Part shown: positions 29,462-37,788 of the stretch, piece after piece
Layout of the letters: each line of letters begins with the position of its first letter
Numbering within the stretch: position 1 is the stretch's first letter
The notes under the pieces: model-generated
The model's database searches: none
Told to the model about the DNA's origin: nothing
The model's input: the letters and a program-made list of their open reading frames with translations, nothing else
Program-made: the position numbers and the translations under genes
Assembly (NCBI GenBank): GCA_001724275.1
Contig: MEDZ01000037.1
Location: 1 to 37,788 of the forward strand
DNA: 37,788 bases
From: Gemmatimonadetes bacterium SCN 70-22
GTDB lineage: Bacteria; Gemmatimonadota; Gemmatimonadetes; Gemmatimonadales; Gemmatimonadaceae
Reading direction: 5' to 3'

Positions 29462-32698
<3,237 letters not shown>

Positions 32699-32721
32699 GT
32701 CCGGAAGTCTAAGTACAGAAA

Positions 32722-32772
32722 GCCGCTCGAGCGGCACGAGGAGCGCCTCCCCGCCGCGACGCCGGCGGGGAG
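32722..32772 (-). terminator. Tandem hairpins in the gmd-carB spacer
   Basis: First, 32747-32772 forms a 10-bp stem (CTCCCCGCCG / CGGCGGGGAG, 6-base loop) about 10 bp after the gmd stop; no T tract follows it. Then 32722-32735 is a perfect palindrome GCCGCTCGAGCGGC followed on the minus strand by TTTCTGT. Together they may terminate gmd transcripts or attenuate carB. Confidence 0.45.
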
Positions 32773-32781
32773 CACTGCAAT

Positions 32782-33771
32782 TTACACGTCCGCCCCCGAT
32801 CTCACGCGCTCCAGGTCGGCGGTGACCATCATTTCGACCAGCGCCGGGAAGGCAACCCGGGGGCGCCACCCCAGGAGCTCCCGGGCCAGCCGCGCGTCCG
32901 CCACGAGCGACGTCGTGTCGACGGGCCGGAACAGCGACGCGTCGGCGACCACGTGCTCCCGGTAGTCGAGCCCCACGAGCGCGAAGGCGTGCTCGCAGTA
33001 CTCGCGCACCGAGTGCGAGACCCCGGTCCCGATGACCAGGTCGCGCGGTCGCTCCTGCTGCAGCATCCGCCACATCGCCTCGGCATAGTCCCCGGCGAAC
33101 CCCCAGTCGCGCCGCCCCTCCAGGTTCCCCAACGTCAGCGTCCGGTCGACACCCGCCGCGATGCGCGCCGCCGCGCGCGAGATCTTCCGCGTGACGAACG
33201 CCGGCCCCCGGCGCGGGCTCTCGTGGTTGTAGAGGATCGCCGAGGCGACGTGCAGGGCGTGGCTCTCCCGGTAGTTCGACGCCAGCCAGAAGGCCGCCGC
33301 CTTGGAGACCCCGTACGGCGACGCCGGACGGACGGGCGTATCCTCCGCCTGCGGCCACCGCTCCGGACGCCCGAAGATCTCGCACGACGACGCCACGACC
33401 ATGCGGGCAGCCGGGGCCACGCGCCGGACCGCCTCCATCAGGTTGACCGTGCTCCCCGCGTTGGCGGACAGCGCCTCCATGGGACGCTCCCACGACGTGT
33501 CGACCCGGCTGGCGGCCGCGAGGTGATAGACCTCGTCGGGGGCGACCCGAGCCACCACCTCCTGCACCGCCGCCGGGTCGCCCAGGTCGAGCGGGACGAC
33601 GTCGAGGCGTGAGAGGAGGTGCGCGATGCGCCAATCGCGACCATCGCCGCCGCCGCGGCGCGACGTTCCCACGACGCGATACCCGTGCGCGAGGAGGAGC
33701 TCGGCGAGGTACGAGCCGTCCTGCCCACGGACGCCCGTGACGAGCGCCGTCTTCGCGGGCGCGTCACGCAT
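32782..33771 (-). CDS. gmd: GDP-mannose 4,6-dehydratase family protein
   Basis: SDR dehydratase giving GDP-4-keto-6-deoxy-D-mannose, precursor of GDP-fucose, rhamnose or perosamine. 329 aa, slightly short. The Gmd-specific Rossmann motif [17 protein letters not shown] is at 11-27. The active site holds SSCEIFG (128-134, where TSELYG is usual) and Tyr153-x3-Lys157 in SPYGVSK. Diagnostic strings [17 protein letters not shown] and [20 protein letters not shown] match Gmd closely. No partner reductase is adjacent. It begins right after the ribosomal operon terminator; I see no Shine-Dalgarno at the ATG. Its C-terminus is followed by hairpins before carB. Confidence 0.88.
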
Positions 33772-33788
33772 CGGCGAGGGGGTGAACG

Positions 33789-33816
33789 AAAAAGGGAGCG
33801 CCGAACGCGCTCCCTT
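33789..33816 (-). terminator. Intrinsic terminator of the ribosomal protein operon
   Basis: On the minus strand AAGGGAGCGC-GTTCG-GCGCTCCCTT is a perfect 10-bp stem with a 5-base loop running into TTTTT. It lies 27 bp after the rpmB stop. This is one of the clearest intrinsic terminators in the window. Confidence 0.92.
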
Positions 33817-33843
33817 GGTCGAACATCGGTTGGAGCGCCGAGC

Positions 33844-34062
33844 TCACGCGACGGCGGCACCGCGAGGGGCCCGCTGCACCTTGCCGGCGGCGAGGCAGCG
33901 CGTGCACACCTTGACCTTGATGGTCTTCCCTTCGCTCACGACGCGGACGACCTGGAGGTTGGGCTTCCAGGTGCGACGGGTCTTGTTGTTGGCGTGCGAG
34001 ACGCTGTTTCCGTAGGCCACGCCCTTCTCGCAGACGTAGCAGCGGTTGCGACTGATGGCCAT
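33844..34062 (-). CDS. rpmB: Large-subunit ribosomal protein L28 (zinc form)
   Basis: 72 aa. The L28 core GNSVSHANNKTRRTWKPNLQ is unmistakable. Two CxxC pairs (Cys8/11 and Cys53/56) show the zinc-binding C+ form. The ATG has GGAGGG seven bases upstream. It follows rplQ by 3 bp and ends the operon; rpmB at the end of the alpha operon is not the usual arrangement, since it more often sits with rpmG. Confidence 0.97.
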   Translation of the reverse strand: MAISRNRCYVCEKGVAYGNSVSHANNKTRRTWKPNLQVVRVVSEGKTIKVKVCTRCLAAGKVQRAPRGAAVA

Positions 34063-34065
34063 GGC

Positions 34066-34422
34066 TCAGCCCTCCACGAGCTCGATGCGCGCCATTTCCG
34101 CCCCGTCGCCCTTGCGATGGCCGGTCTTGAGGATGCGCGTGTATCCACCGGGCCGCTTGACGTACTTGGGCCCGATCTCCTTGAACAGCTTGTCCGCCGT
34201 CTCCCGCTTCTGGATGTGACGGCCGGCGAGACGGCGATCGTGCAAGGTCCCGGAGCGGGCCTTGGTGATCAGCTTCTCGATGAAGGGGCGAAGCTCCTTG
34301 GCCTTCGCCTCCGTGGTCTCGATGGCACCGTGCTCGATCAGCGACGACGCGAGGCCGCGCATGAGCGCGAGCTTCTGTTCGCTGGTGCGGCGAAGCTGGC
34401 GCCCCGCTTTCCTGTGACGCAT
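34066..34422 (-). CDS. rplQ: Large-subunit ribosomal protein L17
   Basis: 118 aa, normal length. Starts MRHRKAGRQLRRTSEQKLAL, the universal L17 N-terminus, and continues with LIEHGAIETTEAKAKELRPF and GGYTRILKTGHRKGDGAEMA. It lies 5 bp after rpoA in the canonical order. It contacts 23S rRNA domain III and lies near the exit tunnel. Confidence 0.98.
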   Translation of the reverse strand: MRHRKAGRQLRRTSEQKLALMRGLASSLIEHGAIETTEAKAKELRPFIEKLITKARSGTLHDRRLAGRHIQKRETADKLFKEIGPKYVKRPGGYTRILKTGHRKGDGAEMARIELVEG

Positions 34423-34427
34423 TGCCC

Positions 34428-35498
34428 TTACTCCTCTTCGTCGTCTGGCGCGTTCGCGGCCGCGCGGCTCGGCGGGGTCCCCAGGTCGATGATGCGGACG
34501 CCCTCGCCGTTCTCTTCGTAGCGCATGCCGAAGTTCAAGCCTTCGCGCTCCAGGAGGTCAGCGATCTCCTGCAGCGACTTCTTCCCGAAATTCTTGACCT
34601 GGAGGATCTGGTTCTCGGTCTGGCGGACCAGGTCACCCAGGGTACGGATGTTGGAGTTCTTCAGCGAGTTCACCGAGCGAACCGAGAGCTCGAGGTCGTC
34701 GATGGCCGTCTTGAAGAGCTGCGCGAGGCGAGCCGCATCCCCGCCGGCGCTATCCCCGCCCATCGACATCGGCGCCGAAGCGTGCGAGCCGAAGGAGGCG
34801 AAGTACTGGAAGTGCGTCTGCGCCAGCGCCGCGGCGTAGCTGACCGCCTCTTCCGGCGTGATGGTGCCGTTGGTCTCGACGGTGAGCGTGAGGCGATCGT
34901 AGTCGGTGCGCTGCCCGACGCGGGTCTCCGCGACGCTGAAGTTGGCGCGGCGAACGGGGTTGTAGATCGCGTCGACGCGAACGAGGTCGATGGGGAGGCC
35001 GCGGTCGAGGACGTGCTGCTCGGACTCGACGTAGCCACGCCCCTTGTTCACGTAGAGCTCGACGTTGATGTCGCGTGCGTCTTGCAGCGTGAACAGGTGG
35101 TGGTTCGGGTTGATGACCCGGACGCTCCCGCTCTGGTCGATGTCGCCGGCGGTGACGGGCCCCGCCTCGGACTTCCCGATGCGCAGCACCGTTTCCTCGA
35201 CGTCGTCGGCCATGCTGAGGACGAGCGTCTTGAGGTTGCCGATGATCTGGTGGACGTCCTCGACGACGCCGGCGATGGTCTGGTGCTCGTGCACCACTCC
35301 ATCGATCCGGAAGCCCCAGACCGCGGCGCCGCGAAGCGACGAGAGCAGCATGCGCCGCATGGCATTGCCGAGCGTGTGGCCGTAGCCCCGCTCGAGCGGC
35401 TGGAGGACGAATTCGGCGACGTACGGTGCCTCATCCCGCTTCCGGACCTCGACGAGGTGGGGACGAACCAGGCCCTTCAGGTCGATCGCTTGAGACAT
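34428..35498 (-). CDS. rpoA: DNA-directed RNA polymerase alpha subunit
   Basis: 356 aa, a little longer than the common 310-330. The alpha-NTD (assembly, about 1-235) contains FVLQPLERGYGHTLGNAMRRMLLSSLRG. A linker rich in Gly/Ala/Ser (about 225-245, GSHASAPMSMGGDSAGGDAA) separates it from the alpha-CTD (about 255-325), which has LELSVRSVNSLKNSNI and the helix-hairpin-helix VKNFGKKSLQEIADLLE that binds UP elements and activators. An acidic tail ends in DDEEE. The 177-bp spacer before it is strongly structured. Confidence 0.98.
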   Translation of the reverse strand: MSQAIDLKGLVRPHLVEVRKRDEAPYVAEFVLQPLERGYGHTLGNAMRRMLLSSLRGAAVWGFRIDGVVHEHQTIAGVVEDVHQIIGNLKTLVLSMADDVEETVLRIGKSEAGPVTAGDIDQSGSVRVINPNHHLFTLQDARDINVELYVNKGRGYVESEQHVLDRGLPIDLVRVDAIYNPVRRANFSVAETRVGQRTDYDRLTLTVETNGTITPEEAVSYAAALAQTHFQYFASFGSHASAPMSMGGDSAGGDAARLAQLFKTAIDDLELSVRSVNSLKNSNIRTLGDLVRQTENQILQVKNFGKKSLQEIADLLEREGLNFGMRYEENGEGVRIIDLGTPPSRAAANAPDDEEE

Positions 35499-35675
35499 GT
35501 ATCAGTGCTCGGTGCGGTCATACCGGGGCCGCGCCCCGGCAACGCCCCACCCCGCCCCTAACGCGCGGTGGGCTCGTACGAGAGTTAGGGTCTCGACCCG
35601 GAAATCCAGACGGGAGACGGGGGTGTGGAGACGGGAGTTGGGGGGTACCCGCACTCCCGTCTCGCATTCCACCGG
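35499..35675 (-). promoter_or_regulatory. Structured rpsD-rpoA spacer with nested inverted repeats and locus D
   Basis: No gene. Three inverted repeats: CCGGGGC-CGC-GCCCCGG at 35523-35539; CCCTAAC (35556-35562) with GTTAGGG (35584-35590), enclosing the palindrome CTCGTACGAG (35573-35582); and GAGACGGGAGT (35628-35638) with ACTCCCGTCTC (35653-35663), enclosing GGGTACCC. The last repeat is made of the G-rich heptamer, and the plus strand 35612-35645 can form a G-quadruplex. A role in tuning rpoA expression relative to rpsD is plausible but unproven. Confidence 0.5.
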
Positions 35676-36308
35676 TTACTTCGAGTACAGCTCGACGACC
35701 AGCTGCTCCTGGGCGGCGATCGGGATGTTCGGGCGCGAGGGGCGCTCGAGCATGCGACCCGAGAAGGTGTCGCGATCGACCGCGAGCCACGACGGGGAAG
35801 CCCCGCGGGTCGCCTGCTCCATCGCTCCCTGCACCAGGGTCAGCTCGCGCGACTTCTGGCGCACGCGCACCTCCTGGCCCGGGGTCACGACATAGCTGGG
35901 GATGTCGACCGTCTTGGCGTCGATCTCGATGTGCCGATGCCGGATGAGCTGACGCGCCGCCTTGCGGCTGGGGGCGAAGCCCATGCGGTAGACCAGGTTG
36001 TCGAGGCGGCTTTCCAGCGCCGCGAGCAGGTTGTGGCCGTGAATTCCCGGCAGCGCCGACACCTTCTTGAAGGTGTTGCGGAACTGCGTTTCGCTGACCC
36101 CGTAGATGCGCTTGATCTTCTGCTTCTCGCGCAGCTGCTTGGAGTATTCCGACGACTTGCGGCGACGCGACGCCGCCTGGCCGTGCTGACCCGGGGGGTA
36201 CGGACGGCGCTCGACCGGGCACTTCTCGGTGAAGCACTTCGTCCCCTTGAGGAACAGCTTCGTCCCCTCACGGCGGCACTGCCGGCAGGAGGCTCCCGTA
36301 TAGCGCAT
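35676..36308 (-). CDS. rpsD: Small-subunit ribosomal protein S4 (zinc form)
   Basis: Primary 16S rRNA-binding protein, nucleator of 30S assembly, and autoregulator of this operon in some bacteria. 210 aa. Four N-terminal Cys (8, 11, 25, 30) show the zinc-binding form. The core has RRPYPPGQHGQ and KQKIKRIYGVSETQFRN. The S4 RNA-binding domain has LESRLDNLVYRMGFAPSRKA and ARQLIRHRHIEID. It lies 2 bp after rpsK in canonical order. Confidence 0.98.
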   Translation of the reverse strand: MRYTGASCRQCRREGTKLFLKGTKCFTEKCPVERRPYPPGQHGQAASRRRKSSEYSKQLREKQKIKRIYGVSETQFRNTFKKVSALPGIHGHNLLAALESRLDNLVYRMGFAPSRKAARQLIRHRHIEIDAKTVDIPSYVVTPGQEVRVRQKSRELTLVQGAMEQATRGASPSWLAVDRDTFSGRMLERPSRPNIPIAAQEQLVVELYSK

Positions 36309-36310
36309 GC

Positions 36311-36688
36311 TCAGACCCTCCGGCGCTTCGGGGGACGGCAGCCGTTGTGCGGAATCGGCGTCACGTCCTTGATCGACTTCACCTGCAGGCCGGCCGACGC
36401 GAGCGCCTGGATGGCCGACTCACGCCCCGAACCGGGCCCCTGCACGCGCACGTGCACGCGTCGCACGCCGGCGGTGAGCGCTTCGCGCGCGCACTGCTCG
36501 GCCGCGACCGTCGCCGCGAACGGCGTCGACTTCTTGGAGCCCTTGAACCCCGCCTTGCCGGACGTCCCCCACGAGATGGCATTGCCATGCATGTCGGTGA
36601 TCGTCACCAGCGTGTTGTTGAACGTCGCGTTGATGTGGGCGATCCCCTCCGCCTCCACGACGCGCTTGGTCTTTTTCCCGGTCGCCAT
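36311..36688 (-). CDS. rpsK: Small-subunit ribosomal protein S11
   Basis: 125 aa. Platform protein of the 30S subunit near the mRNA exit. Motifs: [57 protein letters not shown] and the C-terminal [16 protein letters not shown]. It lies 1 bp after rpsM. Confidence 0.98.
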
Positions 36689-36689
36689 A

Positions 36690-37067
36690 CTACTTGGTCA
36701 CCTTCTTCTTGCCCGCGATCGCGCGACGCGGTCCCTTCTTCGTGCGCGCATTGGTGTGAGTGCGCTGACCGCGCACGGGGAGCCCACGGCGATGACGGAT
36801 CCCTCGGTACGAGCCGATGTCCATCAGTCGCTTGATGTTCATCGCGACCTCGGTGCGCAACGCACCCTCGACGCGATAATCCTTCTCGATGACCTGACGG
36901 AGCTTGTTCACGTCGCCATCGGACAGATCGCGCACGCGCAGGTCGGACGAGACCCCGGTCTTCCCGAGAATCTCCTTCGCGACGGCACGCCCGATCCCGA
37001 AGATGTACGTCAACCCGATCTCGACCTTCTTGTCGCGAGGGAGATCGACACCAGCGATACGCGCCAT
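36690..37067 (-). CDS. rpsM: Small-subunit ribosomal protein S13
   Basis: 125 aa. Head protein of the 30S subunit that contacts the P-site tRNA and L5. Motifs: [34 protein letters not shown], and the tRNA-contacting basic tail [24 protein letters not shown] lies six bases before the ATG. It lies 2 bp after rpmJ. Confidence 0.98.
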
Positions 37068-37069
37068 AA

Positions 37070-37186
37070 TCAGCCCTGCCGCTGCTTGTGCTTAGGGTTG
37101 CGCTTGCAAATGATGCGAGTGACGCCGCTGCGCTTCACGACTTTGCAGTGCTCGCAGATGGGCTTCACGCTGCTGCGGACTTTCAC
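37070..37186 (-). CDS. rpmJ: Large-subunit ribosomal protein L36
   Basis: 38 aa with a GTG start. Its sequence [20 protein letters not shown] continues with [18 protein letters not shown]. The zinc ligands Cys11, Cys14, Cys27 and His33 are present, so it is the C+ form. GGAG sits six bases upstream of the GTG. It is the first gene of the operon; infA, map, adk and secY, which usually precede it, are not here. Confidence 0.97.
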
Positions 37187-37240
37187 CGGAGACTCCGAAT
37201 CGATCCGAAGGGAACTAACGAAAAATCGGACAAGACACCA

Positions 37241-37269
37241 AGAATAGACATGTCGCCCCCTCGATGCAA
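37241..37269 (-). promoter_or_regulatory. Sigma70-type promoter of the rpmJ-rpmB operon
   Basis: On the minus strand TTGCAT (-35, 37264-37269), a 17-bp spacer and TATTCT (-10, 37241-37246). The transcript would start near 37234, leaving a leader of about 48 bases before the rpmJ GTG. The surrounding 37190-37300 is noticeably AT-richer than the rest of the window and holds nothing else I recognise. Confidence 0.8.
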
Positions 37270-37344
37270 GGGATCGACAGCGCCAAAATCACGTACTGGC
37301 GCGCAATTACGCCCCCTCCACCCCACCCAGCCACCCCTCCCCGC

Positions 37345-37554
37345 TCACCCCCCCGCCATCTCCCGACGGACTCGCTCCATCGCCCCCCGCGGGTCACCCG
37401 CCGCGGTCACCGCCCGCCCCAGAACCAGGTACCGCGCCCCGGCGCCAACCGCCCCGCCCGGCGTCACCACCCGGAACTCGTCCAGCTCCATCAGGCGGCC
37501 GACGGCCTCCTTGATGTGGCGGGCGGTGATGACATTGCACTGGCAGACGATCAT
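37345..37554 (-). pseudogene. Chimeric frame: Bfd-like N-terminus joined to PyrF-like C-terminus
   Basis: 69 codons. Residues 1-27 (MIVCQCNVITARHIKEAVGR then LMELDEF) resemble the start of bacterioferritin-associated ferredoxin-like [2Fe-2S] proteins, with the first CxC pair. The second Cys pair such proteins need is missing. Residues 28-69 (RVVTPGGAVGAGARYLVLGR then AVTAAGDPRGAMERVRREM) resemble instead the C-terminal end of orotidine-5'-phosphate decarboxylase (PyrF). Codon endings change from mostly C to mostly G at about 37455-37475. I read this as two gene fragments joined by rearrangement or by an assembly error, not as a working protein. If real, the 3' part is the remnant of a pyrF that stood before rpmJ. 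Confidence 0.55.
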
Positions 37555-37558
37555 GATC

Positions 37559-37788
37559 TCAGCCCTGGGCGACTCCGGCGATACCGGCCAGCGACTTCAC
37601 CGCCCGCTTCAGCTGCGCGTTCTCGCGGCGCAGGCGGCGCAATTCCGCATCACCGGAGCGGGACGGTTGCTCGGCCCGCTTCAGCCAATTGTAATAGGTG
37701 GTGTCCGTGACACCCAGGACACGGGCGATCTCATAGACCCGCTTGCCTTCGCCGCGGAGCGCCGCGGCTACCTTGAGCGGCGCCGGCG
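37559..37788 (-). CDS. Helix-turn-helix protein, transposase OrfA-like (5' end cut by window)
   Basis: The last 76 codons are visible. A helix-turn-helix (VYEIARVLGVTDTTYYNWLK) is followed by a Leu-spaced basic/acidic helix (LRRLRRENAQLKRAVKSL), the layout of IS3-type OrfA (transposase_8) proteins. No terminal inverted repeat or OrfB is visible, and the frame ends with a short tail (AGIAGVAQG). It stops 4 bp before the chimeric frame. It may share the foreign origin of that frame's N-terminal part. A small transcription regulator is the other possibility. Confidence 0.5.
   Translation of the reverse strand, partial: PAPLKVAAALRGEGKRVYEIARVLGVTDTTYYNWLKRAEQPSRSGDAELRRLRRENAQLKRAVKSLAGIAGVAQG

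Follow-up and report, generated by a model that had tools for sequence, protein, structure and literature searches.

The 69-codon reading frame at the contig end

The stretch of DNA analysed here (the window) is the entire contig C37 (37,788 bp) of the assembly of Gemmatimonadetes bacterium SCN 70-22, which consists of 84 contigs and 4.70 Mb and is estimated to be 99.98% complete. In this contig the end of pyrF is followed by rpmJ, rpsM, rpsK, rpsD and rpoA, all in one orientation, and a minus-strand ORF of 69 aa, running from 37554 to 37345 and open through the join described below, ends about 230 bases short of the end of C37. Since the window is the whole of C37, the feature at issue is no more than 310 bp away from where a contig stops. 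The opposite end (1-120) also cuts a gene, a large minus-strand ORF (2-2737), in a Gly/Ala-rich low-complexity stretch. The features of the region are the following:

37348..37473, minus strand: native pyrF 3' end (orotidine 5'-phosphate decarboxylase), comprising the last ~42 codons, with rpmJ directly downstream; from amino acid and nucleotide alignments
37455..37473, minus strand: junction zone CGGGTGGTGACGCCGGGCG, coding for R-V-V-T-P-G; from alignment rows, exact-match search and blastn ends
37474..37554, minus strand: foreign bfd 5' end (Bfd-like [2Fe-2S] protein, alphaproteobacterial), cut ahead of the second Cys pair; 97% aa identity to L031
37559..37778, minus strand: foreign HTH_Tnp_1-type ORF, C-terminal part, which precedes bfd in Aestuariivirgaceae; from Pfam and aa identity
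37779..37788, no strand: last 10 contig bases, outside the alignment with the alphaproteobacterial locus

The original prediction had read the ORF as a chimera of a Bfd-like start (residues 1-27) and a PyrF-like end (residues 28-69), and this reading is borne out by the ORF translation, by the split between two Pfam families and by NCBIfam. In Pfam, Fer2_BFD matches residues 2-31 (E 8.5e-4) and OMPdecase residues 28-61 (E 4.3e-4), both weakly and below the curated cut-offs. The Fer2_BFD profile (PF04324) is matched only over positions 1-28 of 50, with 20.1 bits vs a cut-off of 26, which leaves the ORF outside the family, and, of the two Cys pairs (CxC … CxxC) expected of a Bfd-like [2Fe-2S] protein, only the first, CQC, is present, as had been predicted, the homologue L031 having CGGC past the junction. 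The NCBIfam model of PyrF (NF001273) matches residues 25-67 with E 1.6e-7, at 31 bits vs a cut-off of 193, and only model positions 188-230 of 233 are covered, far from a full-length TIM barrel; the N-terminal and central catalytic parts of PyrF are missing from the ORF, and the N-terminal part is found on another contig, C26.

Full-length homologues in related genomes had been named as the counter-evidence to look for, and none was found in 60 relatives, 58 of which gave matches, to the PyrF half only. Likewise, when the genome contigs were searched with the 69-aa protein, each returned match spanned one half only.

The two sides of the junction

When the two halves were searched separately, as the prediction had proposed, they led to different phyla. 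Residues 25-68 share 80% and 77% aa identity with the PyrF C-termini of the two same-genus genomes compared, G001 and G002. In G002 pyrF is intact, in the order pyrD-pyrF-rpmJ-rpsM-rpsK-rpsD, and the nucleotide alignment to it begins at the CGGGTGGTGACGCCGGG block.

By contrast, residues 1-33 share 97% aa identity with the Bfd of Taklimakanibacter lacteus (L031), a member of the Aestuariivirgaceae (Hyphomicrobiales, Alphaproteobacteria), and 88% with those of both Rhizobiales bacterium Y(2018) and Aestuariivirga sp. YIM B02566, again in the genome-contig search. The Bfd of L031 reads MIVCQCNVITSRHIKEAVGRLMELDEFRVVTPGEVFRCCGERPQCGGCMPH..., with start and motif as in the window, and continues past the motif with EVFRCCGERPQCGGCMPH to the second Cys pair (CGGC), which is absent from the window. 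At the nucleotide level, 37455-37778 aligns at 85-90% identity to a locus of four Aestuariivirgaceae genomes, where bfd reads ...DEFRVVTPG... and goes on to its second Cys pair, and the order imelysin-like/HTH/bfd/bfr/multicopper oxidase is found in all four (the names imelysin-like, bfr and multicopper oxidase are our own reading of the sequences). The original prediction had named, as one of two options, that the last ~310 bases belonged to another genome; they are indeed alphaproteobacterial, and the account has to be extended, because the tail also holds the end of the HTH ORF. Of this ORF the C-terminal 72-75 codons lie in the window (37559-37786), with a Pfam match to HTH_Tnp_1 (E 1.3e-8) and 89% aa identity to the HTH protein of L031 over 72 residues. 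The alignments to all four alphaproteobacterial loci begin at query base 11 and are continuous up to 37778; the last ten bases (37779-37788) are GC-rich and CGGCGCCGGCG-like, and their failure to align would reflect either divergence or another end error.

In the four Aestuariivirgaceae genomes, this HTH_Tnp_1-like ORF (~85-90 aa) resembles OrfA of IS3 and is a conserved neighbour of bfd-bfr (L031:2557-2991, L032, L033, L052); perhaps it is a transposase-type protein that was domesticated to regulate the iron-storage genes. The resemblance also raised disruption of pyrF by an insertion sequence as a candidate, which was rejected, since the fixed HTH-bfd neighbourhood in four genomes, together with the presence of the tail in one copy only in the assembly, indicates that the tail is not the end of such an element. 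Base composition did not discriminate as a test of foreign origin (66.9% GC in the tail vs 69.2% in the window).

The two identities change over at the segment predicted as the point of fusion. The R-V-V-T-P-G motif is present in both parent genes, bfd and that for PyrF, and identity to the alphaproteobacterial loci extends across CGGGTGGTGACGCCGGGCG (37473-37455) and ends there, pyrF identity beginning at the same block. Exact matches of 15-17 bp to the bfd genes of L031-L033 cover the zone (16-17 bp in L031 and L033). The join is thus located where it had been placed, not as a point, however, but as a zone (37455-37473) in which ~16-19 bp, judged from relatives of both parents, are common to the two gene families.

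Division of pyrF between two contigs

The remainder of the native gene is found elsewhere in the assembly. With the PyrF of G002 as query, residues 1-175 match C26:28-525 and residues 217-260 match C37:37351-37482, with no further match in the assembly; C26 thus carries the first ~65-70% of pyrF, adjoined by pyrD, at its very start. In agreement with this, a 12-kb stretch of a single G002 contig aligns to window positions 31739-37464 (86-87%) and then to C26:107-2128 (79%), the gap between the two aligned blocks being 220 bp in the G002 contig. C26 covers roughly the first 70 bp of this interval and then runs into a 33-bp tail in which pyrF can no longer be read, and about 115 bp of pyrF are missing from the assembly between the two contigs. 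The counterpart of these ~115 bp in relatives has ~72-75% GC, and this high GC content is a plausible reason for the break. As for the 33-bp tail (C26:1-33 in G000:C26, L025; reverse complement TCGGCCAACCGGTGGCGGCCGCGGTGTTCGGGT), it departs from pyrF homology and has no second occurrence in the assembly, and this end of C26 may also be faulty.

Further DNA of the donor was sought in the assembly with sequences of its relatives, so that the absences are supportive and not absolute. With ~3 kb of L032 DNA from each side of the locus as query, only the fragment in the window was found, and a search for the bacterioferritin (Bfr) of the L032 locus found none in the assembly. No genome matched was the contaminant itself, the highest nucleotide identity being 90%. 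A Fer2_BFD match at C16:18291 (15.7 bits), considered as a possible second half of bfd, lies in an unrelated region, where long ORFs overlap one another, and was judged spurious.

Origin of the join and comparison with known systems

Taken together, the alignments establish, at the level of sequence comparison, that the tail is of foreign origin, that pyrF is split and that the locus is intact and collinear in a relative: the DNA is of Gemmatimonadota up to 37473 and of Aestuariivirgaceae beyond it, where the contig stops at 37788, and the native continuation (pyrF 5' part and pyrD) stands at the start of C26. On these grounds the 69-aa ORF is almost certainly an artefact at a cross-species chimeric contig end inside pyrF. 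The Gemmatimonadota assembly would have broken within pyrF, leaving pyrD and the pyrF 5' part on C26 and the pyrF 3' end, with rpmJ onward, on C37; the latter break would then have been extended by ~306 bases of Aestuariivirgaceae DNA (HTH ORF and bfd start), passing through the ~16-19 bp common to both genes at the R-V-V-T-P-G codons. Such a join would stem from DNA that was co-sequenced or contaminating, and would have been made either by the assembler or in the library. Shared stretches as short as this are probably to be expected many times by chance between two multi-Mb genomes, and the join therefore needs no biological cause.

The original prediction had left two options, a mis-joined contig and a real deletion or transfer junction. 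It is the former that is strongly favoured by the alphaproteobacterial tail, the rest of pyrF on C26 and the collinear G002 locus, while a recent transfer or deletion at the junction is improbable. A real and very recent inter-phylum transfer, in which Aestuariivirgaceae DNA recombined into pyrF through the shared ~16-19 bp and interrupted the gene, could have used this motif for microhomology-based recombination just as well. However, the foreign piece is only ~306 bp and reaches to the contig end, searches with L032 DNA for the ~3 kb bordering the donor locus on each side found none of it elsewhere in an assembly complete enough (99.98%) that a large insert should be visible, and the halves of the native pyrF sit exactly at two contig ends. 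Loss of pyrF makes a cell need uracil, a need that the interrupted gene would also entail. A split and otherwise collinear pyrF, with no further donor DNA, makes the chimeric contig end by far the simplest account. As to a functional Bfd-PyrF hybrid protein from a real gene fusion, the reading frame is open across the join, but its two sides match different phyla, the Bfd half is without the second Cys pair, the PyrF half is without ~80% of the enzyme and no full-length homologue appears in the 60 relatives or at the returned genome-contig loci, so that this explanation can hardly be entertained.

The chimeric contig end is an ordinary artefact with no new biology, and its significance is limited to data quality. 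Automatic annotation would predict a protein of 69 aa that does not exist and would list pyrF as missing or broken, errors that might be mistaken for a need for uracil or for a gene fusion.

Compared with PyrF (NF001273 / PF00215), residues 25-68 of the ORF and the rpmJ neighbour correspond to G001 and G002, whereas, of the ~240-260 residues of the enzyme, no more than the final ~42-44 are present, the remainder being on C26. The Bfd-like (2Fe-2S)-binding protein (PF04324) of the Aestuariivirgaceae is matched in residues 1-33, downstream of the same HTH ORF, but the copy in the window is cut ahead of the second Cys pair, and a search of the assembly for the adjoining bfr found none. The error class addressed by GUNC (PMC8201837) is that of draft-genome contigs which are chimeras of two species. 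The present case resembles such contigs in the switch of lineage within one contig and differs from them in that the foreign part amounts to just ~300 bp, and, being so short, it would probably be missed by contamination checks based on gene counts.
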